Of a stretch of 64,000 nt of DNA, positions 6,036 to 61,383 are shown in pieces (positions within the stretch are counted from its first letter, which is position 1; each line of letters opens with the position of its first letter). The DNA comes from Rossellomorea marisflavi (GTDB taxonomy: Bacteria; Bacillota; Bacilli; Bacillales; Bacillaceae_B), in NCBI RefSeq assembly GCF_009806575.1, contig NZ_CP047096.1:1-64000 (forward strand), given 5' to 3'. The notes under the pieces were generated by a model. The model had not been told where the DNA came from and searched no databases. It was given only the letters and a program-made list of their open reading frames with translations. Position numbers and translations under genes: made by a program.

Positions 6036-6314
6036 TTAGACAGACCTTTTCTTCCAAGAATAATGATTCTGTGGGTCAAGTGGTGTTGGCTCCTGGGGAA
6101 GGTTACTCTTTTCAACTATTTTATATTTCCCGTTCTTTACGACTGTTCTGTTGTTGCCTAAATCAAGCTTCTTAGCTAGGTCATTGTCCAAGATTTCAAC
6201 GATTACTATTTCTTCCCTGAGTAAAATTATTCTACCTTCAATGGTCTCACCATACCGATCAAATTCAATGATATCCATAAGATTTGGTTTACCAGCACTA
6301 CTATTTTTCTCCAC
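6036..6314 (-). CDS. DUF2187 (YkvS-like) protein
   Basis: I place the start at GTG 6314 (MEKNSSAGKPNLMD), 9 bases after an AAAGGATG ribosome binding site; an upstream TTG at 6335 lies on the hairpin and is less likely. The core DIIEFDRYGETIEGRIILL...VEILDN...NRTVVKNGKYKIVE matches the small SH3-like DUF2187 family. It is the first gene of an operon with spo0E-like and DUF6037-like genes, and is preceded by a promoter and an attenuator-like hairpin. Biochemical role unknown. Confidence 0.75.
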   Translation of the reverse strand: MEKNSSAGKPNLMDIIEFDRYGETIEGRIILLREEIVIVEILDNDLAKKLDLGNNRTVVKNGKYKIVEKSNLPQEPTPLDPQNHYSWKKRSV

Positions 6315-6333
6315 TAATTTCTCATCCTTTCGC

Positions 6334-6382
6334 AAAAAGACACCCTAAAAAGTATGCTAATTAGCATCATTTTTGGGGTGTC
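6334..6382 (-). terminator. Attenuator-like hairpin in the leader of the DUF2187-spo0E operon
   Basis: On the minus strand GACACCC and GGGTGTC arms (6376-6382 with 6339-6345) enclose an inner palindrome ATGCTAATTAGCAT and are followed by TTTTTGCG. A consensus promoter lies 28 bases upstream and the ribosome binding site a few bases downstream, so transcripts must pass this terminator to reach the genes. Confidence 0.75.
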
Positions 6383-6409
6383 CCATAGTTATTATCCATA
6401 ATTTTCTTC

Positions 6410-15282: not shown

Positions 15283-15849
15283 CTAAAAGTTTTTTGTTTG
15301 TTGGATAGGCGGTACGTCAGCTGTTTTCTTTTTTAAGGCTAGGATCCAGTCAATCAGTAGGTCACGATCGACCAATCTGACTTGATTTGAACTCGCTAGC
15401 TTCTTCGCAGGCTCAGTGAAGAAACTGTTGGTGACGACCCAGCACTCATCAGCGCTGTAATGGCTTTTAGCTGAAGCAATTTCTTGTACGGCTTTAATGC
15501 CAACATTCTTTTTATAACGCTTAGCTTGCACGATAATTCGTTGATCACTCAAGGTTAAAACCAAATCAGCCCCATAATCTCCACTGGAAGGTGTTAATTT
15601 CACACGATAGCCTAGATTTTTCAATAAAACTTTAAGATATTCTTCGAAATTCCGCCCAGACATCTGATCGATTTCCCGGATTCCGGATTCTTTTAGTCTT
15701 TGTTCTCTACGAATATCTTGTATTAAAGGAATAGCAATGACTAATCCTAACAGAGAGAATATACCTAAAGTTAATAATGGCTCGTCCATTAAAATGGTCC
15801 AGAGTAGCTCTAAGCCAATCTTGAATCCTTCGAGAAAGCCTATATCCAT
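15283..15849 (-). CDS. Membrane-anchored Mrr-like restriction endonuclease family protein
   Basis: The protein has 188 residues: one N-terminal membrane segment (LLTLGIFSLLGLVIAIPLI), then an Mrr_cat-type fold: GRNFEEYLKVLLKNLGYRV, the catalytic D-x(n)-QxK pattern as DYGADLVL and IIVQAKRYKKNVG, then AVQEIASAKSHYSADECWVVTNS. Such proteins are predicted to cleave DNA, often modified DNA; the membrane anchor is typical of short Bacillaceae members. A clearly related 3-prime fragment lies at 25655-25900. Single gene, no methylase adjacent. Confidence 0.8.
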   Translation of the reverse strand: MDIGFLEGFKIGLELLWTILMDEPLLTLGIFSLLGLVIAIPLIQDIRREQRLKESGIREIDQMSGRNFEEYLKVLLKNLGYRVKLTPSSGDYGADLVLTLSDQRIIVQAKRYKKNVGIKAVQEIASAKSHYSADECWVVTNSFFTEPAKKLASSNQVRLVDRDLLIDWILALKKKTADVPPIQQTKNF

Positions 15850-18800: not shown

Positions 18801-19583
18801 TTATTGAAACAAACCACTGAGGGAGTCTTTACCGTCTTGTACTGCTTTATCAGCTAGATCTTTCCCTTTCTCCCCCAGTAAATTCTTTGCCTTGTCGTCG
18901 ACCTGTCCTTTTATATATTCTTTAGTCGCATCCTTTATCGACTGCTCTGTGCTTTTGCGCTCAGCCACGACAGGATTAAAGCCCCCGTCAGGCTGAACGT
19001 AGCCTGGCAAGCTCCACACATTTAACTTCTGCTGTCTTGCCTTCTTTTCCGCTGCTTTAAATTCAGGCAGCATGGTGATCCCAGGAGGTATTACGAATCT
19101 GATGATCGCTAACCCTTCCTCAAGGAGCTTTTCTTGCAAAATTTCTCCGTTAGGAAGCTGAACGTAAACAAGATGACGTTCATACTTATCCTTCTTGTTT
19201 CCTTTGTCATAATAAAGCTTTAGTTCAGTTCCTTTTGGCAGTAGCTCCTTTACCCGTTCAGTTGCTTTATCTCCCCAAGGCATCTTTTCTGTTGTCCATT
19301 CCGGAGAATCAATAAGAAGAAAACGTAACTTTACTTCTCTCTCTTCTGCCTCACCATCGACGATTTTAACTGCTATTGTGTCCCCGTCCACAACATGGGT
19401 TACTTCACCAATAAATGACCCTTCATCAATGGTCTCAAGTTTGTTCTTATCTGAAGTTTTAACACTTAGATCGTTTGTTTGAGTTGTGACAGGTGCCGCA
19501 GGAGCTTGTTGTTCCATCTCACTAATAGAACAACCAGTCAGAATTGAAATACCTAATATGAAAGGTAAGATACGTTTTTTCAT
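18801..19583 (-). CDS. Thermonuclease-family lipoprotein
   Basis: 260 residues. Signal peptide with lipobox LTGC, a linker, then an SNase domain (GEVTHVVDGDTIAVKI, LRFLLIDSPEW, GDKATERVKELL, DKYERHLVYVQL, EGLAIIRFV). The catalytic Arg and Glu of LRFLLIDSPE and the Arg of YERHLVYV are present. A hydrophilic C-terminal tail follows. Predicted surface-anchored, calcium-dependent nuclease (YncB/Nuc family) that degrades external DNA. ATG 19583 follows AAAGGAGG. Confidence 0.85.
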   Translation of the reverse strand: MKKRILPFILGISILTGCSISEMEQQAPAAPVTTQTNDLSVKTSDKNKLETIDEGSFIGEVTHVVDGDTIAVKIVDGEAEEREVKLRFLLIDSPEWTTEKMPWGDKATERVKELLPKGTELKLYYDKGNKKDKYERHLVYVQLPNGEILQEKLLEEGLAIIRFVIPPGITMLPEFKAAEKKARQQKLNVWSLPGYVQPDGGFNPVVAERKSTEQSIKDATKEYIKGQVDDKAKNLLGEKGKDLADKAVQDGKDSLSGLFQ

Positions 19584-19597
19584 TTATATTCCTCCTT

Positions 19598-19891
19598 TTA
19601 AATATTTCTTAATGTCTTATTAGAGACTTTAGCTATATAACGGAGACACTCCCTAATAGGGTATTGAATCAAGGACTTTGCCTGGCCAAAACGTATTCCT
19701 ATTTCCTCTAAATGGTCTACGAGTTGCATAACCGTCCACTCACCGTCATGAATCTTATGAAAAGACTTTATTACGACCTTCTTCCACTCTAAAGCTGGGC
19801 TAAGTATGTATGCTTCACCCATTACTGTGTGGTTTATTATTCTGTCAATTTTCTCCCGTTTCTTTTTGATCTCAAGCTCTTCCTGATACAA
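19598..19891 (-). CDS. Hypothetical protein, 97 residues
   Basis: TTG 19891 has AGGAGG at good distance. Helical, charged product (LEIKKKREKIDRIINHTVM). A terminator-like hairpin (19912-19964) lies directly before the ribosome binding site and a TGATATAAT extended -10 lies before the hairpin, so attenuation is plausible. Function unknown. Confidence 0.6.
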   Translation of the reverse strand: MYQEELEIKKKREKIDRIINHTVMGEAYILSPALEWKKVVIKSFHKIHDGEWTVMQLVDHLEEIGIRFGQAKSLIQYPIRECLRYIAKVSNKTLRNI

Positions 19892-19911
19892 TGCAATCGC
19901 CTCCTAAACGC

Positions 19912-19964
19912 AAAAACCCCACCTGAAAACGAATATATGTGTATATTCGTCCAAGTGGGGTTTT
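19912..19964 (-). terminator. Attenuator-like terminator before gene 19598-19891
   Basis: AAAACCCCACTTG ... CAGGTGGGGTTTTT with inner CGAATATA/TATATTCG stem; T run followed within 10 bases by AGGAGG. Confidence 0.8.
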
Positions 19965-20023
19965 CCCATTAGTTATTCTTTTTTTATTATATCATACGTA
20001 GACGCTTCATCAGATACCTTGTT

Positions 20024-20155
20024 TTAATCTTTCATAGGTGGTCTACCGTCACTCCAGAATTTAAATTGCATAGGCTGTTTTCCGTCACAATAGCGCTCTG
20101 GTGAAGCTTTAAGTGGATGTTACATAGGTGGTCCTCCATCAGAAAACGGGAACAA
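20024..20155 (-). other. Mini-ORFs encoding three DGxxPM peptide repeats
   Basis: One minus-strand frame from TTG 20155 (with GAGGTGA 6 bases upstream) reads MFPFSDGGPPM, stop, then on in the same frame through YCDGKQPM and WSDGRPPMKD to a stop at 20024. The repeat [SC]DGx[PQ]PM occurs three times with different codons, which suggests selection on the peptide. Either a broken small gene or an 11-residue peptide plus a decayed neighbour. Not recognised; a signalling peptide is only a guess. Confidence 0.35.
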
Positions 20156-20226: not shown

Positions 20227-20451
20227 TCAGTGGGTTGGGAGGGTTACTGGTGAATCAAGTACAATCGTAGAAATCGCATGTTTGTAGATCATCTGTTGTC
20301 TCTTATTAAATTCAATTAGAATAGTAAAACCATCGAAGCCAATAATTTTCCCATTAATCTTCATCCCGCTAACTAAAAAGATTGTAACGGTTTGACCATT
20401 TCGCCTTGCTTGGTTAATTATATGGTCTTGAATAGAATTTGATTTCTTCAT
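20227..20451 (-). CDS. hfq: Hfq-family RNA chaperone
   Basis: 74 residues. SIQDHIINQARRNGQTVTIFLVSGMKI matches Sm1 of Hfq (QD-xx-N, VTIFLVNGxKL), GFDGFTILIE the middle, and RQQMIYKHAISTIV the Sm2 YKHAIST signature. Hfq forms a hexameric ring that binds U- and A-rich RNA and pairs small RNAs with targets. ATG 20451 follows AAAGGAG. Bacillaceae hosts have their own hfq, so this is an extra, element-borne copy. A variant NKRQQ replaces the usual EGKQQ. Confidence 0.9.
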   Translation of the reverse strand: MKKSNSIQDHIINQARRNGQTVTIFLVSGMKINGKIIGFDGFTILIEFNKRQQMIYKHAISTIVLDSPVTLPTH

Positions 20452-20485: not shown

Positions 20486-20743
20486 TTACTTCAAGAGATC
20501 CTCCGCATAAAAGATTCCCGTAAGACCATCATTAAATTGGACAGTATATGAATTCCTGGCCATTGATTCATGGATACAGATAATCTCACCGATCTTATTA
20601 GCGAATGACATTAAATAATAGTAGTCCTCTTCGGTCCCTTCTTCTAAAAGAGGTGATTTTATTTTGACATGCTGGGACAACTGAAAAACTGTTGAGACAC
20701 CCACTTCTTCAATAGTTAAATCGAACAAGTTAATTTGCTTCAT
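20486..20743 (-). CDS. Hypothetical small protein, SH3-like
   Basis: 85 residues. VKIKSPLLEEGTEEDYYYLMSFANKIGEI then SYTVQFNDGLTGIFYAEDLL suggests a small SH3-like barrel seen in Bacillaceae plasmid hypotheticals. Its start lies 3 bases after the stop of the HTH gene, so they form an operon with hfq downstream. Function unknown. Confidence 0.6.
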   Translation of the reverse strand: MKQINLFDLTIEEVGVSTVFQLSQHVKIKSPLLEEGTEEDYYYLMSFANKIGEIICIHESMARNSYTVQFNDGLTGIFYAEDLLK

Positions 20744-20746
20744 GGC

Positions 20747-21712
20747 TCACGTTATATTCCAGTGTTGTTTTAGTGTGTGAATAATTAGTTCCTCCATAGT
20801 ACATTTATCATCCGCTGCTTTTTTTCTAATGAAATCTTTCATCTCATTAGAAAAATATATAGTCATGGGTTCTAAACCAGTATCAATATATATTCCCTCA
20901 ATATCCTCGAATATTTCTCCCGAAACCAAAGCCTCCATTAAATAGTTTATTTCTTCTTCAGTGAAAACAGTTATTAATGACGGTTTAACCTCCATAAGGA
21001 TGTTATCCTTATCAAATTCCATTTTCATGTTAGACGGGCCGAGGTAGACGAGAAACTTTTCAATGATTTGGTACACAATCGATTGTAAGTCATAAGGTCG
21101 CACAAATTTAAATTTCGCATAGCCCTTGCGGTTAATATGATCTTTTTTATTGGCTATGTATTTTGGTGTGTATCCACTGTATAAAGCTACTTCAAGAGGG
21201 ATTGTTTTGTTATTTATGGTGGATAGTTTAGGGTCCTGTTCCATTTCCATGATTCGACCGAAATCTTGAGATTCCTCATTATAAAAGCTTTGGAATAAAA
21301 AGTACTTATCATTGGAAAGTAAGTTTGTATTCTTTTTTTTGTATTGCTGCCATTCCTTTGATTCTAAGAATTGTTTAATATCGTTCTCTTGTAAGAAGTA
21401 TTGCACTTTACCTTGAAAAGACCTCTTAATAGCAGGAAGTTTTGACTCATGTATGTACTTCATTAGAACATGGTAAGGAATATCATACTTTTTAGAAACT
21501 TTAAATGTAGTTATTCCTGGCTTAGTGATGCTTTCTTTAAATTGCTCTATTTCTTGTTTATCAAATAGTTTGGTCCTTCTCATTCTCCATTTATGATCGT
21601 AGATGGGATTGATTTTTTTATCTTTGATGTATTTGTAAACGGTCGGAAGACTTTTACCTAATATCTCTGCGACTTCTTGTGTAGTGACAAAATCTCTCTG
21701 TTCATTGTTCAT
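20747..21712 (-). CDS. Helix-turn-helix protein, 321 residues
   Basis: Two excisionase/MerR-like helix-turn-helix units are visible: VTTQEVAEILGKSLPTVYKYI (residues 9-29) and FKVSKKYDIPYHVLMKYIHESKL (about 72-94). The rest is alpha/beta, ending in a MEELIIHTLKQHW helix like a ribbon-helix-helix tail. It heads an operon with 20486 and hfq. Next to a 300-base very AT-rich tract, so a replication or partition role is possible, but no Rep motif is seen. Confidence 0.65.
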   Translation of the reverse strand: MNNEQRDFVTTQEVAEILGKSLPTVYKYIKDKKINPIYDHKWRMRRTKLFDKQEIEQFKESITKPGITTFKVSKKYDIPYHVLMKYIHESKLPAIKRSFQGKVQYFLQENDIKQFLESKEWQQYKKKNTNLLSNDKYFLFQSFYNEESQDFGRIMEMEQDPKLSTINNKTIPLEVALYSGYTPKYIANKKDHINRKGYAKFKFVRPYDLQSIVYQIIEKFLVYLGPSNMKMEFDKDNILMEVKPSLITVFTEEEINYLMEALVSGEIFEDIEGIYIDTGLEPMTIYFSNEMKDFIRKKAADDKCTMEELIIHTLKQHWNIT

Positions 21713-22035
21713 TGTGAAAACATGACATCTCCTTCCTTCATGATTAAGTGAAATATTATTACTAATGTATTATATATTATAAACTATTTTACTAGATTTA
21801 TATATTTTTAATTATAATTTATTTTTAGTTAAAACTATAATAACTTATGGGAATTTAAGTAATTAAAATAAGGTACAACAAATGTAGTATTTTTTGTATG
21901 TTGTAATATTCTATGTGATATAATTTTATAAAAGTATTTAGTAAATATTAATCACTAATAGTCAGTGAAATAAATATCTTGTCATTGGAATATTTGAGAA
22001 AAACTATTTAATTTGATAAGTTGGTGAAAATTATT
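21713..22035. other. Very AT-rich intergenic region between divergent genes
   Basis: About 300 bases almost free of G and C, with repeated TATATATT-like words and a possible extended -10 (TGATATAAT at about 21917-21925) toward the recombinase. Could be a melting region of an origin or a recombination site of the neighbouring tyrosine recombinase; no iterons or arm-type repeats were found. Confidence 0.4.
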
Positions 22036-23202
22036 ATGTTTGATGTTCGGTTATCCTTGAATACAAAAGATAATGAATTAACTAATGTTTCTTCGCTTAC
22101 AAGAGTTTTTATGGATACCTCTCAACTCCCAGAATTAATACAAAAAATGGACAATTCCGAAAAAGAGAATCGCTTATTATTTGAGGACTTTACTGATCAT
22201 GAAATTCTCTATTATTATGTTCACTATAATAAAAACAGGGATCGTGAGAAAAGTCGTGCACCCGGAACTAAAAAAGAGTATTTGCGGGAGCTTTTAAAAT
22301 TTGCTCATAATATCGTTTCATATGCTAGCACAATTGGTGTAGATATTAACCAAGTCCACGACCATTCTTTGTTTAAAAGTCTTTCGCCCAGACATATTGC
22401 CCGCTACCAAATATGGATGGAGAAGGAAGAACCTCTTCTTAACAATAAAATATCGTATTCTTCTTCTACACTTGCTCGTAAAAATACAATTATCAAAAGC
22501 TTCTTGGATTACCTTTACAAGAATAAATACATTAGCGTTAATTTAACGGAAAGAATGAAATCCTCTACTGTAAATGATTATGAGCGACCGAATCGAGATC
22601 TTGGACCAGGAGAGGTCATTCAGATTTTGGATTACTTTTATAATGAAGAAAGGCATCCAATTATGGCAGGGCTAATACACGTCCTAGTTACAACGGGAAT
22701 TAGGAATTCAGAGCTTTGCAATGCTAAAATGAAGGATCTTAAGTATGATTCAATTGCTGCATCATATACTTTGAGTTTTAGAGCTAAAGGAAATATACAA
22801 AGAATTGTCCCCATTAAAAATAAAGTATATAGATCGATTGTCGAATATAGGAAAGCAAGAGGGCTAGACACTGTTCTTTCAAGCAATGATTCTTCACCTC
22901 TTTTACCGAATGCATACGGGAATGCATATACACGTTCATATCTATCTAAATACATAAAAGCATCTATTCTCAGAACAAACCTTTCCTTTCTTGAAAATCG
23001 AGAAAACCCAATTACGCCTCATACTTTTCGTCATGCATTTGCAGTTATTTCTTATCAATCGGGTGCGGATATCTATACCATACAAAAAAGTCTGGGACAT
23101 GAATCATATCGAACTACGGCTATTTATCTTCAAAAAATACTCGATCTTAATCAAAATGCCATCTATTCATGGGATCAAGGTGCTATGAAGAAATACGTTT
23201 AA
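22036..23202 (+). CDS. Tyrosine recombinase / integrase
   Basis: 388 residues from ATG 22036 (weak GGTG ribosome binding site; in-frame TTG 22021 is the alternative). A SAM-like N-terminal core-binding domain (TKKEYLRELLKFAHNIV, LARKNTIIKSFLDYLYK) precedes a catalytic domain with Arg in TTGIRNSELC, His-x-x-Arg in ITPHTFRHAF, His in SLGHES and the nucleophile Tyr in TTAIYLQ. It cuts and rejoins DNA at specific sites; role may be element integration or multimer resolution. Ended by terminator 23228-23264. Confidence 0.85.
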   Translation: MFDVRLSLNTKDNELTNVSSLTRVFMDTSQLPELIQKMDNSEKENRLLFEDFTDHEILYYYVHYNKNRDREKSRAPGTKKEYLRELLKFAHNIVSYASTIGVDINQVHDHSLFKSLSPRHIARYQIWMEKEEPLLNNKISYSSSTLARKNTIIKSFLDYLYKNKYISVNLTERMKSSTVNDYERPNRDLGPGEVIQILDYFYNEERHPIMAGLIHVLVTTGIRNSELCNAKMKDLKYDSIAASYTLSFRAKGNIQRIVPIKNKVYRSIVEYRKARGLDTVLSSNDSSPLLPNAYGNAYTRSYLSKYIKASILRTNLSFLENRENPITPHTFRHAFAVISYQSGADIYTIQKSLGHESYRTTAIYLQKILDLNQNAIYSWDQGAMKKYV

Positions 23203-25654: not shown

Positions 25655-25972
25655 CTACAGATCTTTAAAAGTCCTAGAATTTTTTGTTGTTTCTTGAATA
25701 GGAGGACTGTCTGCTGTTTTCTTCTTTAAAGCCAGTACCCAGTCAATCAATTGGTCGCGATCAACCAATCTGACATGATTTGAACTCGCTAGCCTCTTTG
25801 CTGGCTCAGTGAAGAAACTGTTGGTGATGACCCAACACTCATCCGCGCTGTAATGGCTTTTAGCTGAAGCAATCTCTTGCACGACCTTAATGCCAACGAG
25901 CTGGGTGGAGCCTGCAACCGAATGATCAACGGAGGCTAGGAAAATGACCGAATCCTTATCACGTAATAGCAA
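25655..25972 (-). pseudogene. 3-prime fragment of a second Mrr-like gene
   Basis: From about 25900 to 25655 the frame reads VGIKVVQEIASAKSHYSADECW...LIDWVLALKKKTAD, closely matching the C-terminal half of the intact gene at 15283-15849 at both protein and DNA level. Upstream of VGIK the sequence switches to an unrelated MLLRDKDSVIFLASVDH stretch, so the copy is truncated and fused. Confidence 0.8.
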
Positions 25973-26250: not shown

Positions 26251-28752
26251 TCACTTGCTCCTGCCCTTCACGAGACGCAGAGCATTCAGAATTACGATAA
26301 TGGCAGCACCCGTGTCGCTTAGTACGGCCAACCATAGTGTCAACCATCCGGGGAAGATCAACGCAAGTGCAACAAATTTAACAACCAGAGAAAACCAGAT
26401 GTTCTGCTTGATAATGCTTAAAGCGCGCTGACTCAGGTTAATGGTATGTGGGAGTTTATCAAGGTTATCTGCCATTAACACGATATCAGCGGTTTCCATG
26501 GCAGTATCCGTCCCTGCTCCTCCCATGGCAATGCCAAGATCAGCTGTTGCAAGTGCCGGAGCATCATTGATTCCATCTCCGACCATAGCTACATGATATC
26601 CTTCACGTTGAAGCTGCTTGATGACATTCACTTTGTCTTCTGGCAGCAATTCTGCATACGAACGATCAATGCCAGCTTCCCTTGATACTAGCTGTGCGGT
26701 CTTGGGGTTATCACCTGTTAACATGACTACCTGATTGATTCCGGCTTCTTTTAAAGATGAAATCGTCTCGACCGTATCTCTTCGAATGGTGTCGGCCACT
26801 GCAAGGATCCCCAGCACATCATCTTCATGACCGATGATGACCACGGTCTTCCCTTCATTTTCAAAGGTATTGGCCACCGTCTCTGCTTCTTCAGTCAAAC
26901 CATTAAGCTCGCGAAATAAACGGACACTCCCTGCGATATATTGTGTGCCCCCGATAATGGCTTTCACACCTTTCCCGGTAATGTTCGTAAAGGAACTTCC
27001 CTCTCTTCCGCTTATCCCCCTTTCAGAGGCATGCTTTACGATGGTTCTTGCAATGGGGTGAGTCGAATGCCCTTCTAATGTCATCGCAATGGACAGTAAT
27101 TCTTCTTCTGTTCCTTCGAATACTTTGATTCCGGAAACATTAGGCTTTCCTTCGGTCAATGTGCCTGTTTTATCAAAGGCAATTGCATTAATACCGGCTG
27201 CCTTCTCAAGAAATGTACCACCTTTGATCAAAACACCATACTTTGCAGCGCTTCCTATGGCAGAAACGATTGCGACCGGAGTCGATATCACCAGTGCACA
27301 AGGACAAGCGACGACCAACAGTTCCAGTCCTCTGTAGAACCATTCACTCCAGGTCCCCATTCCCACTAATGGTGGAATGACCATGACCACCACAGCAAGA
27401 ACAAAGACGATGGGGGTGTAGATGGACGCAAAGCGGTCAATGAATGCTTGAGTAGGGGCTTTTTGGTCTTGAGCCTCTTCCACTAGATGAATGATTCTGG
27501 CGATTGTTGTATCTTCTACAAGCTTCGTGACTTTGACTGCCAATGAACCATTTTCGTTGATGCTTCCAGCATAGACTATGTCACCTATTGTTTTATCAAG
27601 AGGGATGGATTCTCCCGTAATAGGAGCTTGATTGACACTCGATTCCCCACTGATAATCTCTCCATCCAATGAAATCCGTTCACCAGGCTTCACCACCATG
27701 ATCTCCCCAATTGCAACGGCTTCAACCGGTTTTTTCTTGATTTCACTTCCCTCTTGGATCCAAGCTTCTGTGGGCGCCAGGTTCATAAGGCTACGGATGG
27801 AATTCCTCGTCTTTTCAATCGACATGGTTTGTAGAGCCGTTCCCAATGCAAATAGCCAAACAACCGTCGCCCCTTCCAACCATTCTCCAATCAATGCCGC
27901 GCCGATTGCTGCAGCAGACATGAGAACGTTCATATCAAGGGAACCGCTGCGAATTGAATAATAGGCACTCCTGACGGGCTTATATCCACTGATCAGCATG
28001 GAAAAAGCATATAGCATCGTGATGACCAAATCCGGCACACCAGTGAAAGATCCCCCTAGGCCGAGGGCAATCAAGATCCCCGATGTGATAATCGTCCCTT
28101 TCTCCTGATTGTTCCCTTTTGGCCTGTTTGCATCATGTCTGGAACGAATCGACGCTTTAAACCCTATTTTTGAAACTTCCGAGATGATTTCATCCACACT
28201 ATTGTCGTGAACCACCTCCATTTTCCCTGTGGAAAAGTGGACAGAAACATGATGGACCCCGTTGATGGATGACAGGTGGTTCTCGATGCTTTTGGCACAA
28301 CTTCCACAGTCCATCCCTTCGACATTGTAGGTCTTGGTATTCTTATTCTCCACTACGGGATCCAGGGCGTAGCCGAGCTTTTCTATCGTGCTCTCTACCT
28401 CATTCCGATCTGCTCCGGATCCCGCACTGTATCTAAGTTTCCCCGTGCTATAATTTACATGGATATCCTCGACCCCCTGCAATTTCCCCAAAGCTTTCTC
28501 AATCGAGAGGGCACAGGACGGGCAGTCCATCCCGGATACCTTATACTCCTCAAAGACTGGTGCCACCTTCCCTTGACGCATCTCACTCCTGTCTTCCCCA
28601 CAAGTATCAATGGTGCAACATGACTGCTGGAGAGGAAAATCAACGTCCGTATCCGCGCAACAACCTTTTCCCGACTTTTCTTGGGCAAGCAGGATTTCAC
28701 TCTTATCGCCTTTCTTCTTATCCGGCGATCCTCCACAACATTTATCGGCCAT
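26251..28752 (-). CDS. cadA: Cd/Zn/Pb-translocating P1B-type ATPase (CadA-like), 833 residues
   Basis: Order: a Cys-rich N-terminal tail (KCCGG, GCCAD, QSCCTIDTC), two heavy-metal-associated domains (GMDCPSC and GMDCGSC), membrane helices, the TGES actuator (ITGESIPLDK), the ion-site CPC (VVACPCALVIST), the phosphorylation motif DKTGTLTEGKP, the HP motif (GHSTHPIA) and hinge TGDNPKTA / GDGINDAPALA. It pumps divalent soft metals out of the cell using ATP. Two HMAs and the extra Cys tail are more than in staphylococcal CadA. Follows its ArsR-type regulator by 13 bases. Base composition is higher in GC than the backbone. Confidence 0.93.
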   Translation of the reverse strand: MADKCCGGSPDKKKGDKSEILLAQEKSGKGCCADTDVDFPLQQSCCTIDTCGEDRSEMRQGKVAPVFEEYKVSGMDCPSCALSIEKALGKLQGVEDIHVNYSTGKLRYSAGSGADRNEVESTIEKLGYALDPVVENKNTKTYNVEGMDCGSCAKSIENHLSSINGVHHVSVHFSTGKMEVVHDNSVDEIISEVSKIGFKASIRSRHDANRPKGNNQEKGTIITSGILIALGLGGSFTGVPDLVITMLYAFSMLISGYKPVRSAYYSIRSGSLDMNVLMSAAAIGAALIGEWLEGATVVWLFALGTALQTMSIEKTRNSIRSLMNLAPTEAWIQEGSEIKKKPVEAVAIGEIMVVKPGERISLDGEIISGESSVNQAPITGESIPLDKTIGDIVYAGSINENGSLAVKVTKLVEDTTIARIIHLVEEAQDQKAPTQAFIDRFASIYTPIVFVLAVVVMVIPPLVGMGTWSEWFYRGLELLVVACPCALVISTPVAIVSAIGSAAKYGVLIKGGTFLEKAAGINAIAFDKTGTLTEGKPNVSGIKVFEGTEEELLSIAMTLEGHSTHPIARTIVKHASERGISGREGSSFTNITGKGVKAIIGGTQYIAGSVRLFRELNGLTEEAETVANTFENEGKTVVIIGHEDDVLGILAVADTIRRDTVETISSLKEAGINQVVMLTGDNPKTAQLVSREAGIDRSYAELLPEDKVNVIKQLQREGYHVAMVGDGINDAPALATADLGIAMGGAGTDTAMETADIVLMADNLDKLPHTINLSQRALSIIKQNIWFSLVVKFVALALIFPGWLTLWLAVLSDTGAAIIVILNALRLVKGRSK

Positions 28753-49341: not shown

Positions 49342-51471
49342 CTATTCTTTGATTTTCAATAAGCGTAAACTGTTTAATGTTACAAGTAAAGTTGCTCCCA
49401 TATCAGCAAATATAGCTATCCAAAGTGTTAACCAACCGGGCATGACCAAAAGTAATGCCACTAATTTAATCGCCAAAGAGAAGGTAATGTTTTGCTTGAT
49501 GATTGCTAAAGCCTTACGGCTTAATTTTATTGTATATGGCAATTTACTCAAATCATCAGACATTAAGGCGATGTCAGCCGTTTCTAAAGCTGTATCAGTT
49601 CCAGCACCACCCATTGCTACACCAACGGTAGATGCCGCAAGGGCTGGAGCATCATTCACGCCATCTCCGACCATCCCCACACTTTGATGTTTTTCTCGAA
49701 GTTCTTTAATAAAATTAAGCTTATCTTCTGGAAGTAAGTCAGCTTTAATATCCGAAACACCAACTTGTTTTCCGATGGCTGTTGCCGTTCTTTGGTTATC
49801 GCCTGTTAGCATCACTGTTTCGATTCCCATATTGTTCAACTTGCCGATAACTTCTTTAGACGATTCCCTCATTTCATCGGCTACGGCAATAAACGAAAGA
49901 ATTTCTTTTTCTGTTCCTAACACCATCACCGTTTTACCTTGAGTTTGCATATCGGCAATTTTTTCTTTCCTATCGCTTGAAATGCTTCCGTGTAATTCCT
50001 CAAAAAGATTTGGACTTCCCACATAATACATTTCATTATTTATTTTGGCTTTAACGCCTTTACCTGTAATGGATTGAAAATCCTCTACTGTTACTTCGTT
50101 GAATTTTAATCCATTTTCTTCTGCTTTTCGCATAATCGCTGAAGCAAGAGGGTGCTGTGATCCTTTTTCAATGGCTGCTGTTATGGTCATTAATTCATTT
50201 TCATTTCTACCATATGTCACAATGTCTGTTACAGCAGGAATCCCTTTGGTTAATGTTCCTGTTTTATCAAAGGCTATCGCTTTTAAGTGTCCTGCTTCTT
50301 CTAAATGGATACCACCTTTAATTAAAACACCATTTTTCGCTGCATTTCCTATTGCTGTAACCACAGCAACTGGAGTTGAGACTACTAAGGCACAAGGACA
50401 ACCAACCACTAATACAGCTAAGCCTTGATAAATCCATTGGCTCCAGTCTCCGCCAAATAATGGTGGAACTACCGCAATTAAAAGAGCTAGTATGACAATA
50501 GCTGGTGTATAGTATTTTGCAAATTTATCGACAAACGCTTGAGAAGGGGCCCGTTCTGCTTGGGCTTCTTCTACCAAGTGAATGATTTTTGAAAGAGTAG
50601 TATCTTCAACTCGTTTTGTTACTTTAACCTCAAGTAACCCTTCTTCATTCAAGGTTCCTGCAAATACTTCATCATTTGTGGTTTTCGTTACTGGAACACT
50701 TTCACCTGTAATCGCAGCCTGATTTAATGTCGATGTACCTTTAACCACTATTCCATCCATTGCTAACTTTTGACCGGGCTTAACAATCATGATGTCTCCA
50801 ACTTGAATATCATCAACATGAATCATCATTTCTTCATTGCCTCGTCGAATTAACGCTTCTTTTGGGGCAATATCCATTAAAGATTCAATAGATTGACGTG
50901 CTTTATCCATTGAATAACGCTCTAATGCTTCACTAATCGCAAATAGGATAACAACGGTTGCCCCTTCACCCCATTCACCAATGATTGCAGCTCCTATAAT
51001 TGCAATAGTCATAAGCGTATTCATATCGAAATTTAATCTGCTTAGATTTTTGAGACCTTTAATGAATAACGAATATCCACCGATTAAAATGGACGCTGCA
51101 TAACCAATTGTCGGTAGAACATGCTCTTCACCATACTGCTCTCCTAAGAACCAGCTAACTACAAGTAAAAGAGCTGATATATATACCTTAATGTTTTCTT
51201 TCTGCTTCCAAAAAGGTTCTCGTTCTACCCTTTGTTCTTTTTCATCTCGAATTTTTAAATTTTCAAATGCTCCTGCTTTTTCTAATTCTTCAATGGTTGT
51301 CGTCCCTTTAACATAAACTTTAGATGCTCCGAAATTTACTTTCGCATCCTGAACACCGGGAAGTTCTTTAACATTATTTTCAAAAATGGCTGCACAGTTA
51401 GTACAAGTAAATCCTTGAACACGATAGGCTTTCATTTCTTCTTCAGACAGTTTTGCTTTCCCACTAGACAT
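49342..51471 (-). CDS. cadA: CadA cadmium/zinc/lead P1B-type ATPase, staphylococcal type, 709 residues
   Basis: One HMA domain ([15 protein letters not shown]), actuator [14 protein letters not shown] in [41 protein letters not shown]. Size and order match CadA of staphylococcal plasmid pI258. It exports Cd, Zn and Pb. The start overlaps the cadC stop by 8 bases. AT-rich, unlike the other cadA at 26251, so the two were acquired separately. Confidence 0.95.
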
Positions 51472-57182: not shown

Positions 57183-60100
57183 TTAAAACAGTTCAAAGGC
57201 CAATTGTCCATCAGCAGATGCGCGCTTCTTTTGCTTGATTGAAGTCTTTTTCACTTCAATAATAGGAGCAAAATATTCCGTAGGGTTTATTGATTGAGCT
57301 CTTTTTAACTCAACACTCACTAAATGGGAAAGTATTTCTCCATCCGGGATGTGTTCAAATCCAAAAGCCTCAATAAAGTCAACGGAAAGGACGCCATCTA
57401 CATAGGTGAAACCTTGTATCTGTCCTCTTTCAATACTCTTTATAATTTGATTTTTCTTTCTTAACATCACGTTCTTAGTTGCTTCTGTTTTTATATTTTG
57501 TCTTGTCCAGGATATATATTGTTCAGACAGTGATGGGACCCTTTTCTTCCCTATGTTAGCTAAGATTTGCCGAGCTTTATCGGAAGTCTGGTGAACCCAT
57601 TCTTCTGCCGATCCTTTTAAGACTTTATTACCTTTCTTTACACTTTCAATTAGTAATGACTGTAAGTCTCCATCATCACCTAACATCGCAGATAACCCAT
57701 CTGATGATAATTCTCCGTTTATTGCTGCAGTTGCTCTGTTTTTCATCGCAATAAGTGTAGCCATGGTTTCCTGGAATGTATCTTGATAAGCGAGATAAAA
57801 AAGGCGGCATTCCTCTGTTTGGCCAATTCTAAAGGACCGTCTACTTGATTGATTAATAGTAAAGAGACTCCAAGAAAATTGATAGTATATGAGGGTAGGT
57901 GTACATAATAGGTCAAGTCCTACTTTGACGAGCTCTTGTGAGACAATGCAAACGTCGTAATCCTCTTTATCGATTTTCTTTTTTAACCACTCAGAGCGGC
58001 TGTCAGTTGAAGTCGTCCCTGTATCTAAGATACATACCTTAGCTCCAACAGACTCCAAAATTTTCTGCAACCTTGGACGTAAATCTCTACCTGGTCTGGA
58101 TGAGCCGGTATCTCGCACATAAACGATTGATTTCCTTCCTTCTGCCATTTCACTTTCAATAATTTCCTGAAGTTTTTTTTCTTTTGGTAACAAGCGGGAG
58201 GGATCTAAATGTTTAGCTCTCCAGATTAAAGTTCTCCCATCCTCACCTTTCATAGTCGCATCAGGGAATGTGAATGGATTATCTGGATACGCAATACCAT
58301 AATCAGTCATTGGCAGGTAAAGCTTATGACCATCTTCCAATGTGTGAATATTGTGCTCGAAAGTACGAACCATTTCTTGGTATGAATCCGATAGTTCTTC
58401 ATCCATATCAACAAATATGGTGGGAGTATCAATCAGGTCTACTGGATCTGGCCATACATCTAAAAGTTTTACGTTAACGACATTACTAACCATATATCTT
58501 CCGTAAATAAAACTACTGATACCTGGTAATACCTTTTCAGATGTTTTATTTCCACCGCGAGAATTTGTGTTGCTATTCTCACTTGTCTCTTCTCTCTCAT
58601 ATGTTGTCTTTTCAATATTTCCATACTCTTCATTAAACCTTCGCACTTCGGAGTATTGATAGCCGGAATCAACCATTGATTTGGGGAATAACCTCCACAG
58701 TAGGTAATAAATATCCTCTGCTTTTCCTCCAAACAGTGTTCCAGTACCAGCAATAATTTTCTTAGATACTGAGGCTAAACTTCCTAAAGAGTTGCCTTGA
58801 GCTGTATTACCGCCCTTTAATGGCAATAGGTAAGACTTTGAGATGATCTCCATCTTTTCCCCTGCCCCACACCGTACGTGAAGCTTTCACCTCATACGGC
58901 GTTCCATCTGCTTAGTGAAATATATTTCGTATAGGGAAAAATAACTAGAACAAAAGTCTCGAATTCATTGTACTAAACACAGTAAATCTTTTCTAATCCC
59001 GTTATCAGTTACATAAATCGACATATCCAGTATATTCTCACATTTACTCGCTATATCTCACACATACTCTTAAAAATATTCCTATGCGAATATTTTAAAG
59101 CGCTAACAGACTTGGGACCTTCCCTCCACTGTGTTTCCACAGCTTCTCGAGTACTATGTCCCTACTATCACAACGACAATCTCACTTCGACAAAGCCTTA
59201 TAGAGATCCTCCACGCTGATAGGCGCATCCTAGAGTCCGTTGCTTTCCACGTTCCAATAAGTTTAGCTCTTCAATAAGCCCTTAGGTGCTTGCTTTGGAC
59301 CTGTGGGTGTTATGGTCTCTTAGCTGACCATGCGATTTTCATAACGAACATCTTACTTATCGGTAACCCACACCTTTATATTAAGGCATATATAGATTTC
59401 TCTATATTCGTTCTCGAGATCCTTTCCTTCGCAAGTTCGTCAGTATAAACATTCTCACCATAGACTTTTTATAGCCCCCCGGCCTATCCATTATCGTATC
59501 TCGTTGACGTAGATAAGTTCAGCCGACTTTACCTAGCTTCACACCCAGATTGCTATCTCAAGCTGCGCGTGTAGGAGTTTAGGGAGTTAGTTTCAACCAG
59601 CATGATGGCTTCATTCCTAACTTCAACTTATTAGTTATATTCAACTTAAAAAAAGTTGAACCGCTAACTTCGCAGTCAAGGTTCCACTGCTTATATAGCA
59701 ACGTGTCACACGTTCATGAACTTCATCTACAATCGAAAGATCAAAGAAATTCTTCATTTTCCTTCGGATGTATTCGATGGCAGCAATACGTCTTGGCATT
59801 CCTGTAGCTTTAGGATAACTATTCTGATTCAATTGCTCGTGTTTATACAATGTTTGATTACCATGATTAATTGCGTAGAGTAGCTTTTTTTCATGATCAA
59901 TCCATTCTGAGAATGATGCATAGCGGTTAGGGACTTTTTTAGTCCAAAGGCTTTCCCCACATTCTGAACAAAAAGAATTTTGAGGTTTAGATGAATCTTT
60001 ATTTCTGCGTCCGCTACCAAACTCAAACTCCTCCATGGTCTTTTTAACCAGAACTTCTTCTTCAGATCCGTCCTCATTTACCACTACGCTTTTGGCTTCA

Positions 60101-61383
60101 ATAATTTGATGTGCTTCTCCGCAGCTTCTACAGTAATAACCAAATCGATAAGGTAGCTCCCCTTCACTTGCCTGCCTTTTCGTTTTTATAAACCTGAAGT
60201 CTACAGCCGGAACACTCCTCGAGTCATTCCTCATAGTAGTGAAAGAGACGATAAAAAACGTCGGACGAGTTGGTTTATTCCTCCCAGCAGCTACCCAATT
60301 CTGGTGCCACTGGATAAGTGTTGCGGTGTTTTTTATAACATGGATCTCAGCGTCAGGTATAAGCTCTTTAATCTCTAATGGCCACTTCTTCGTTAAAGAG
60401 GGCGGGCACATTAGACAAGCAAAATAGCCTTTTTTATTTATTAGTTCATGATAACCATCAGTTATCGCTGTCATCATTGATGACTTACCCGTGCTCATTT
60501 GACCTTGGATTATGACCGCTTTTTGTTTTGTTAATCTTTTAGCTATAGCGGTTGATACATGGCCTTGTACAGGAAATAGCTGTCTTGGATAATTATCAAA
60601 GTGAGGAAGAATCTCGTCTTTCATTGGATCGTGATCAGGTATGACTTCATCAGAGAGCTTCGTAACCATATCATCTGAGAAAGTCACCATGTAATCCGTG
60701 AGAGACTCCAAACTTGAAAGGGCTGAGCCGCTTCCCTTTTTAGGAAATTGCAATGTGCCACTTTGAATCATGTCTGATATTAGTTTGTCTGCTTGCTCTT
60801 CCTCAAGATTAATACGAAGTAATGAGATTCCTTCTGGAAACAATCCATGATCAAAATATATGTCCACTTCTTCAATGAATTTCCGACGAATCAGTTCTTC
60901 GTATACGGCCATTTTCCAATCATCTAAGATATGAAGACCATACTTAGCTCCACCTAAAAGTGTGGCAACATCTTCTGACGGATTGTTCTCAAAACAGAGG
61001 ATGTACTCATTATTCAATAATAGCTTTTCATGAACTATGGCCATTGCTTTTTTATTTTGGTTAATCGTGATGGGAAATCGCTCATATGCACCTTTTTCAG
61101 CAACAAGACCAAATTCACTTTTGAACTCATAGTTGGTGAGTCCCTTCTCTCCATATCCAAACCGGAAGCCACTTGAACCAATATCCATTGCTGCTTTCAT
61201 TGCCTGCAAAGTGGAATCACTTCCAGCTAAGATTGACATCAGGATAATTGGTGGTTTGTCAGAGTGTACTTGCTCCAAAGCAAGTCCATAACAAAAGGTA
61301 CTTTGCCAAGCTTGCTCTAAGTAAACCTCCAACATCTTTGGATTATCTTCTGTTTCCACTAATTTAAATAATTCTTCAGTCAT
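57183..61383 (-). CDS. SNF2/DExH-type helicase, 1102 residues, interrupted by a group II intron
   Basis: Exon 1 is 61383-59712, exon 2 is 58819-57183; joined they give exactly 1103 codons with the stop. Walker A IIQGQMSTGKSSMMTAI (about residue 297), a zinc-ribbon insert (YYCRSCGE and FCSECGE, about 415-465), the DEVH box IVDEVHELKGGN across the splice site, motif III region IAGTGTLFGG, and motif VI QSSRRSFRIGQTEECRLFYLA. It should translocate on DNA using ATP. Unspliced, translation from exon 1 stops 23 codons into the intron after DEVHE, removing all C-terminal motifs. LexA box at 61486 suggests SOS induction. The large N-terminal 280 residues are not recognised. Confidence 0.88.
58820..59711 (-). 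mobile_element. ORF-less group II intron, 892 bases
   Basis: On the minus strand it begins GTGTGACACG (consensus GTGYG) and ends near CCTATTGCCAT. Close to its end is a domain-V hairpin GCCGTATGAGG-TG-AAAG-CTTCACGTACGGT (about 58869-58902), followed by a domain-VI-like stem with TTACC carrying a candidate branch A. Removing it joins GAAC to TAAAG and restores HELKGG in frame. No reverse transcriptase frame is present, so splicing needs the RNA alone or a maturase supplied in trans. Confidence 0.88.

Follow-up and report, generated by a model that had tools for sequence, protein, structure and literature searches.

A Second Hfq and a Family of Putative Attenuator-Like Leader RNAs on a Large Plasmid of Rossellomorea marisflavi

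A large plasmid of Rossellomorea marisflavi carries an hfq gene of its own, and the product of this gene probably serves (at a probability of roughly 0.6) as a working accessory chaperone of that plasmid, i.e., one with U-tail binding kept and with distal-face reading changed. Such a protein would form an Sm ring, its proximal face would still take U-rich 3' ends, and its altered distal face would read different sequences, with plasmid RNAs perhaps being handled without dependence on, or indeed drain of, the Hfq of the host. The U-tract leaders which are found on the same plasmid would constitute instead a separate, attenuator-like and plasmid-wide system, that is, one for which no plasmid hfq is needed.

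The Replicon and the hfq of Its Host

The genome consists of two contigs, the chromosome C1 (4,411,234 bases) and C2 (138,020 bases). By 'the window' is meant here the whole stretch of DNA that was analysed, 64,000 nucleotides in length, which is C2:1-64000. The two ends of C2 do not overlap, and a 192-aa reading frame crosses them upon their joining, as expected of a circle. Encoded on C2 are Replic_Relax, a TraG/VirD4-like coupling protein, a VirB4/TraG-like ATPase, a T2SSE-like ATPase, an M23/SLT peptidase, and also a DNA polymerase III beta clamp, and I take C2 to be a conjugative-type plasmid. Its G+C content is 37.4%, versus 46.6% for the 3.2 kb that surround the chromosomal hfq.

That chromosomal hfq was found, at 113 bits, by a profile search of both contigs (C1; L001). 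The initial annotation had described the gene studied here as a second hfq residing on a mobile element, or else, should the host lack another, as the host's normal copy. As C1 carries an hfq, and as C2 is a 138-kb contig with conjugation genes, the second-copy claim is not refuted and indeed stands. More broadly, 19 of 397 genomes of the order possess at least two Hfq matches. The other 18 of these were searched again, with the surroundings of most of the extra copies inspected, and those copies are a mixed set: One group is common to a family, and two copies adjoin thermonuclease genes (L098, L099). For three of five extra matches with an apparent internal stop (G059, G095 and G129), this stop is where an intact frame ends naturally, and as such is no evidence for decay. 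One Bacillales genome (G102; L098, L099, L100) displays four Hfq matches, three of these being extra copies.

The Plasmid Hfq Protein

The coordinates first given for the gene (Table 1) are correct, i.e., they delimit a 74-aa open reading frame. The strand is minus, and stops interrupt a plus-strand reading of the same interval. By sequence and by predicted fold the identification of the product as an Hfq is firm, because the Pfam score, the closest PDB chains, and the predicted-fold matches all agree. Thus, the PF17209 (Hfq) score is 89.8 bits versus a curated cut-off of 27, and a PDB sequence search gave 37 distinct PDB sequences in total, with B. subtilis Hfq (3ahu) the best of them at E 4.6e-17. 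The AlphaFold2 model, as built from a two-row alignment, has a mean pLDDT of 83 and consists of a helix (H7-17) plus five strands, that is, a predicted Sm fold. Foldseek, as supplied with this model, placed Listeria 4nl3 on top, then a Caulobacter Hfq, and then B. subtilis 3hsb third, with a TM of 0.88 by query length versus the best matches, all of which are Hfqs.

Individual residues were compared with those of 48 chromosomal Hfqs, 30 from the genus and 18 from the order, with positions assigned to proximal, rim, and distal faces partly according to PMC5348863. The proximal, uridine-binding positions are Q8, F/Y42, K56, and H57 in E. coli numbering, and the plasmid Hfq has all of them, as Q8, F42, K57, and H58. 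It retains as well D9, F39, D40, and T62, with a G found at position 41, where N is invariant in 48 of 48. Its rim is R16 R17, with R16 K17 seen in 47 of 48.

More changed is the distal side. There F25 is kept, and N28S, F30M, Q31K, and R33N are replacements of residues which are common to 47 or 48 of the 48 chromosomal Hfqs. One of the five residues of the Gram-positive distal set (F25, N28, F30, Q31, R33) thus is kept, with the roles of these residues taken in part from PMC5348863. The initial annotation had noted a difference in the distal-face loop, which is NKRQQ rather than the EGKQQ of the host (with GKQQ in 48 of 48 chromosomal Hfqs); this was right, with the change being wider than had been noted, i.e., involving positions 28, 30, 31, and 33 too. 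Such changes do not exclude membership in the Hfq family because the residues vary within that family, with E. coli differing at four of the five, and K31 of the plasmid Hfq is as found in E. coli.

Gene Neighbourhood and History

The hfq gene is last in a presumed operon of the order HTH_17 - 85 aa - hfq, the gaps being 3 and 34 nt (Table 1). The homologue of the 85-aa gene that is found in the Sutcliffiella locus was not seen in the locus of Bacillus sp. RO1.

Table 1. Positions of the features discussed (window coordinates unless a contig is named).
Feature	Position	Strand	Remarks
Plasmid-borne hfq, 74 aa	20227..20451	minus	ATG at 20451; Shine-Dalgarno-like AAAGGAGA ahead; PF17209 89.8 bits
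85-aa gene, directly upstream of hfq	20486..20743	minus	Homologue behind Sutcliffiella HTH gene (L103), E 1.6e-13
321-aa HTH_17 protein, first gene of presumed operon	20747..21712	minus	Pfam
Tyrosine recombinase, divergent from HTH gene	22021..23202	plus	Recombinase at same place in related loci
Short frame behind hfq	20024..20155	minus	TTG start, strong Shine-Dalgarno; gives MFPFSDGGPPM-stop
Leader RNA of 97-aa gene	19898..19971	minus	AATGGGA, terminator-like hairpin, TTTTTGCGTT, Shine-Dalgarno
97-aa gene behind leader	19598..19891	minus	Leader ahead in 8/8 distinct loci
Thermonuclease (SNase)	18801..19583	minus	Pfam; N-terminus read as lipoprotein signal
Possible second window leader, weak	6323..6388	minus	R1 E 0.042 in local set, 0.49 in whole genome; unlisted with R2
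DUF2187 gene behind possible second leader	6036..6335	minus	Pfam
S1-domain protein gene	C2:90332-91228 (L004 6332-7228)	minus	Candidate leader regulator

The HTH gene is what defines the place. Matches to it are found in 88 plasmid records and at 20 genome-contig loci (two of the latter being short matches), and five plasmid loci along with the 20 contig loci, several of which end at contig borders, were inspected for hfq. An Hfq lies behind the HTH gene on Sutcliffiella horikoshii pBH-BAT-167 and on a Bacillus sp. RO1 contig, and is absent from that place in the other 19 of 20 contig loci, several of these being ones that end at contig borders. There is no Hfq anywhere on the Halobacillus, one Priestia, and the C. 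firmus plasmids which carry the HTH gene, and none is annotated within 1.5 kb of the HTH locus on a second Priestia plasmid. The window Hfq is 34% identical to that of RO1, and YKHA is missing from both of the same-place Hfqs; given such differences, one origin of Hfq at the HTH place is plausible at most. Immediately behind the Sutcliffiella and RO1 hfq genes (L043 10020-10100, L048 8015-8100) there is a near-invariant stretch possessing a terminator-like hairpin that overlaps a 14-bp pairing, with z of -7.2 and -6.6 for the two structures; among plasmids, the stretch behind the Sutcliffiella gene matched the Sutcliffiella record only.

Partnership between the Hfq and the thermonuclease was considered and rejected. 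The thermonuclease gene does adjoin an Hfq on a B. subtilis plasmid and in two of the three extra copies of G102, but I take it to belong to the plasmid backbone because it is present as well on the Halobacillus and C. firmus plasmids, which are without hfq.

In the window, an inverted repeat connects the hfq stop codon with the Shine-Dalgarno sequence of the short MFPFSDGGPPM frame, which suggests translational coupling. Past the stop of the latter, and in frame with it, are the repeats CDGKQPM and WSDGRPPM (20024-20155, minus). No homologue of these SDGxPPM frames was seen among plasmids, where there were two chance-level matches at E 9, and a scan of the genus (36 genomes) for SDGxPPM as a DNA pattern gave two occurrences on C2 and a single one in each of 6 other genomes.

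The plasmid and host Hfqs are 49-51% identical. The best relative of the window Hfq among the matches listed, as from 397 genomes of the order, is 54% identical, and there is no relative at 60% identity in plasmid or phage collections. A tree was built from 57 rows but few columns (72), and the program warned of long branches; in it 34 chromosomal-type Hfqs fall on one side of a branch (92/85) and the window Hfq on the other, three of the 34 coming from plasmid-collection records with chromosomal-type neighbours. The nearest neighbour of the window Hfq there, weakly supported (88/52), is the one encoded by B. subtilis plasmid NRS6116_2. A recent copying of the host gene is an unlikely origin because of this identity of 49-51% together with the tree position, and the plasmid hfq would appear to have been apart from the host gene for long. 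Phage origin was rejected as well, the phage collection having supplied 6 records, all below 60% identity, and with viral contigs containing no relative of the window Hfq by a search that detects close relatives only.

Elsewhere in the window, frames for heavy-metal P-type ATPases (26251-28752 and 49342-51471, minus) by reading each lie beside an ArsR-like regulator frame. A restriction-endonuclease-like frame has, also by reading, a truncated second copy whose C-terminal part is nearly the same (15283-15849 and 25655-25972, minus).

A Family of Leader RNAs

A hairpin and a T-rich stretch lie at most 45 nt upstream of 17 of the 117 plasmid open reading frames with a Shine-Dalgarno sequence, an uncontrolled count, and by reading ten of these 17 hairpins are terminator-like. 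Covariance models assign seven or eight of the C2 leaders to one family. What the initial annotation had said about many structured leaders with U-rich tracts is borne out to this extent, though not its placement of the U tract before the first hairpin: On the coding strand that tract, TTTTTGC (five T), comes after the hairpin rather than ahead of it.

In the eight loci of the 97-aa gene the leaders have a common layout, which is NGGGA, a stem of varying sequence, a U tract, and then a Shine-Dalgarno sequence. RNAalifold, as employed with 7 of these 8 leaders, gives 14 pairs, 6 of them with two-sided changes. The window's own example has a hairpin (19971..19898) with z of -8.8 and, by reading, an extended -10-like stretch upstream. 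Considering the 57 leaders that were tabulated, 44 have a start codon with Shine-Dalgarno sequence, and an open reading frame of at least 40 aa, within 40 nt past the U tract, mostly at 15-26 nt. With so little room for a promoter between U tract and start codon, transcription of these genes would as a rule have to pass the hairpin. A -10-like hexamer is found upstream of 31 of 37 leaders versus 62% in shuffles, which is a moderate enrichment.

Two covariance models were built, R1 from 7 leaders of the 97-aa gene and R2 from 20 sequences. R1 finds leaders ahead of genes unrelated to that one, on C2 ahead of EAL-domain, replication-relaxation, and S1-domain genes, ahead of a gene with a sub-threshold DUF6097 match, and ahead of a 499-513-aa gene without a Pfam match, along with a match at 119629 to which no gene was assigned and a weak match before the DUF2187 gene. 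It finds a leader also before the thermonuclease gene of Halobacillus pLDW-31. When run on the whole R. marisflavi genome, R1 gives five C2 matches at E ≤0.002, one of these being a training sequence, followed by a chromosomal match at E 0.0036, a C2 match at E 0.0086, and chromosomal matches at 0.019 and 0.026, with the chromosome being 32 times longer than C2. The C2 leader at 91309 is absent from this whole-genome list. R2 gives seven C2 matches at E ≤2.2e-4 and none on the chromosome below 0.02, those seven having been used in training R2.

The window gives just two Rfam matches that reach gathering score, both to group II introns. Domains of such an intron (58820-59639, minus) separate frame 57183-58853 (Helicase_C) from frame 59641-61383, and these frames may each be half of a single helicase gene. 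When the hfq locus and five leader loci were compared with Rfam, there were six matches, all below threshold, with the best at E 0.019 and 30.9 of 55 bits. No description of the leader family was found in the literature searched, which reached few subscription papers. With neither Rfam match nor description found, the leader family is more novel than is the plasmid Hfq.

Pairing Between N and N' in the Leaders

The table of 57 leaders consists of 64 matches minus 8, plus the window's leader at 6323 (R1 only); the 8 left out are four repeated places, one on the reverse strand, window 54291, L048 2724, and L051 11700. In 56 of the 57 the pattern N-GGGA-(1-7)-CCC-N' is seen, and all 56 have N paired with N', as 38 U-A, 11 A-U, and 7 C-G pairs. 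None of 100,000 shuffles rises above 47, although this figure, as with that for the second set below, overstates, the leader rows being related by descent and many of them homologous. In R1 and R2 themselves N and N' are left unpaired. In leaders of the 497-499-aa gene the pair differs between plasmids, some having U-A and others C-G.

A further set of leaders, the best 40 of 61 matches and from seven plasmids, lacks the NGGGA motif in 3 of the 40, with 37 parsed and 28 paired. The nine leaders taken from W07 are identical to Niallia leaders already present in the first set, and their exclusion leaves 31, of which 28 parsed. Of leaders from previously unused plasmids, then, N and N' pair in 19 of 28, a value that was reached by 1 of 100,000 shuffles. 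By plasmid, pairing is found in 11 of 11 (W08), 3 of 3 (W09), 1 of 1 (W11), and 3 of 4 (W12); it is rare on Terribacillus W06 (1 of 4) and absent on Virgibacillus W10 (0 of 5). Seven of the nine non-pairing leaders are A-A. The tendency toward N-N' pairing thus holds among these sequences, but it is not universal.

The 5' NGGG and the NGGG of the terminator's 3' arm may be viewed as competing, because the terminator uses CCCN' as its 5' arm as well. Pairing of N with N', in combination with this sharing of an arm with the terminator, suggests that the leaders are attenuators. The small 5' hairpin is predicted at about -4 kcal/mol versus -14 to -30 kcal/mol for the terminator (eight C2 leaders), and because of this difference an unaided switch is unlikely. 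Switching presumably would require a binder, or instead the small hairpin would act before the terminator has been made.

A Candidate Binder, the S1-Domain Protein

At E 0.01, leaders are present on 11 of 11 plasmids that have the S1-domain protein (its own plasmid, i.e., C2, plus W01, W02, W04, and W06-W12) and on 0 of 7 without it (W03, W05, and W13-W17). Presence is defined here as at least 37% identity over nearly full length, such that W14, with a distant relative only (26.5% identity), is counted as without. By this threshold there are 14 plasmid records, 10 of them searched for leaders and 4, from Cytobacillus, left out; weaker matches are seen in 20 records, one of which (W14) was searched. 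W06-W12 were selected for S1 presence, with the W07 leaders being those of an earlier Niallia contig, and one W09 leader was already present in another earlier record.

On most of the related plasmids inspected, the S1 gene is flanked on one side by a TraG/VirD4-like gene and on the other by a gene that is either hypothetical or of replication-relaxation type. It is itself preceded by a leader in 11 of 13 loci (own, W01, RO1, Niallia NCCP-28, W04, W02, W06-W09, and W12), with the leader on W12 lying 133 nt away and with the two Niallia loci being copies; upstream of the S1 genes of W10 and W11 there is no model match. Common descent of one plasmid family would explain this association of leaders with S1 protein as well as function does. 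Replicon G289:C2, which equals the Priestia koreensis plasmid NZ_CP061869.1 in length (198,404 bases), bears leaders along with the S1 protein, and its Hfq-like match is interrupted by a stop.

To the following I would assign somewhat less than even odds: The leaders make up a regulon of attenuators, not described before, that extends over the whole of large Bacillaceae plasmids. In it, the 3' arm of a 4-bp hairpin (NGGG/CCCN') close to the 5' end would also be part of an intrinsic terminator, and a plasmid RNA-binding protein would switch many genes to read-through at once. The S1-domain protein would be the best candidate for this binder, its own gene being mostly leader-bearing. Genes so switched together would include those of replication-relaxation, EAL-domain, and S1-domain proteins. 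Where such a plasmid also has an hfq, its Hfq may handle the U-tailed RNAs that are ended at the leaders.

What the Plasmid Hfq May Do

The accessory-chaperone reading has to be weighed against others. The plasmid Hfq might instead be a decoy or modulator, i.e., one which mixes into host rings and thereby weakens or redirects host riboregulation. The stretch by which subunits meet in known rings is close to that of the host (QQMIYKHAISTI versus QQLVYKHAISTF). In addition, Hfq3 of the Bacillus anthracis plasmid pXO1 is a mixture of hexamer and monomer, and is toxic upon overproduction, with its distal face responsible, according to PMC5348863. I consider such a role unlikely here.

Less likely still is that the plasmid Hfq is a dedicated partner of the leaders, holding their U tail or GGGA hairpin and so setting termination. 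The plasmid studied here, the RO1 contig, and the Sutcliffiella plasmid do each carry both Hfq and leaders, and in the window a leader is found some 250 nt behind hfq. On the other hand, no Hfq match is found on either Halobacillus pLDW-31 (W02) or the C. firmus plasmid (W04), on which leaders are abundant, there being at E ≤0.1 some 13 matches on W02 (including both strands of one place for some) and 12 on W04. In Niallia G420, the leaders are on C6 and C7 whereas the sole hfq is on C3, and the Hfq-bearing B. subtilis plasmid (W05) has no leader at E 0.01 and one weak match at E 0.0165. The suggestion in the initial annotation that the plasmid Hfq serves the structured leaders thus finds no favour: The hfq-free, leader-bearing plasmids rule out Hfq as an obligate leader partner, and an obligate Hfq-leader link is, if anything, disfavoured. 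It nonetheless is possible that short RNAs ended at leaders are clients of the plasmid Hfq.

About as improbable is that hfq is passive cargo, that is, a relic without selected function. Its distribution is patchy, with most of the inspected HTH loci lacking hfq, and the window copy is without a close relative by which selection could be gauged. The gene nevertheless is an open frame with a good Shine-Dalgarno sequence and with nearly all core residues kept. Moreover the Sutcliffiella and RO1 Hfqs, from the same place and identical at 58 of 70 residues, have a dN/dS of 0.07 (25.3 synonymous and 14.7 non-synonymous changes), a value known for this pair only; by this measure the pair is under purifying selection. 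That it is simply the host's ordinary hfq is ruled out, with the chromosomal gene lying behind a frame that reads as miaA and with an hfq present in each of the 36 genomes that were searched from the family, a single genus, of which the genome studied here alone has two.

Comparison with Known Systems

Plasmid-borne Hfqs are already known as a kind, as are attenuators. Among the systems closest to the present one is Hfq3 of pXO1, which likewise is an extra Hfq, encoded by a large plasmid in a relative of Bacillus that has chromosomal copies too, and which likewise has a short C-terminal tail and diverged surfaces. It differs in having IEEQ at the place of the E. coli rim arginines, where the window Hfq has RRNG, a comparison that is based on that paper's description (PMC5348863). 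The pXO1 sRNAs XrrA and XrrB are equally stable without any of the three hfq genes (PMC7843513), which counts against the accessory-chaperone reading.

Three B. subtilis plasmids of 63-65 kb also encode an Hfq. On NRS6116_2, the one inspected, hfq is followed by a thermonuclease gene, as here, but the other annotated neighbours are helicase, Cas4-like, and toprim genes, and there is no leader at E 0.01. With B. subtilis Hfq itself (3hsb, 3ahu) the window Hfq shares fold, most proximal residues, and YKHAIST, differing from it by N28S, F30M, Q31K, R33N, and the loop NKRQQ. Thermococcus plasmids also carry an Sm/Hfq-like gene, though its products are archaeal and mostly zinc-fingered, and the gene is found behind a helicase gene (PMC3543421).

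As to the leaders, the LoaP-associated dfn leader of Bacillus velezensis similarly has a small hairpin and then an intrinsic terminator before the first gene, but its UNCG hairpin is apart from the terminator, whereas that of the plasmid leaders shares its 3' arm with the terminator (PMC12691694). LoaP-type control was considered as well, and rejected, as PF02357 (NusG family) gave no match on C2. ConAn of pLS20 and canT of Tn916 similarly involve control at terminators of genes of Gram-positive mobile elements; theirs, however, is processive antitermination of one long operon rather than many short leaders before separate genes (PMC11658703).

What role plasmid Hfqs play is a question that was left open by the work on pXO1 Hfq3, and the plasmid hfq described here, along with the same-place Hfqs of its relatives, offers a non-pathogen system for asking it. 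The leader family would be of more weight, if true, as conjugation-type plasmids would then be controlling dispersed genes, transfer-type genes among them, by means of one termination-level RNA switch.
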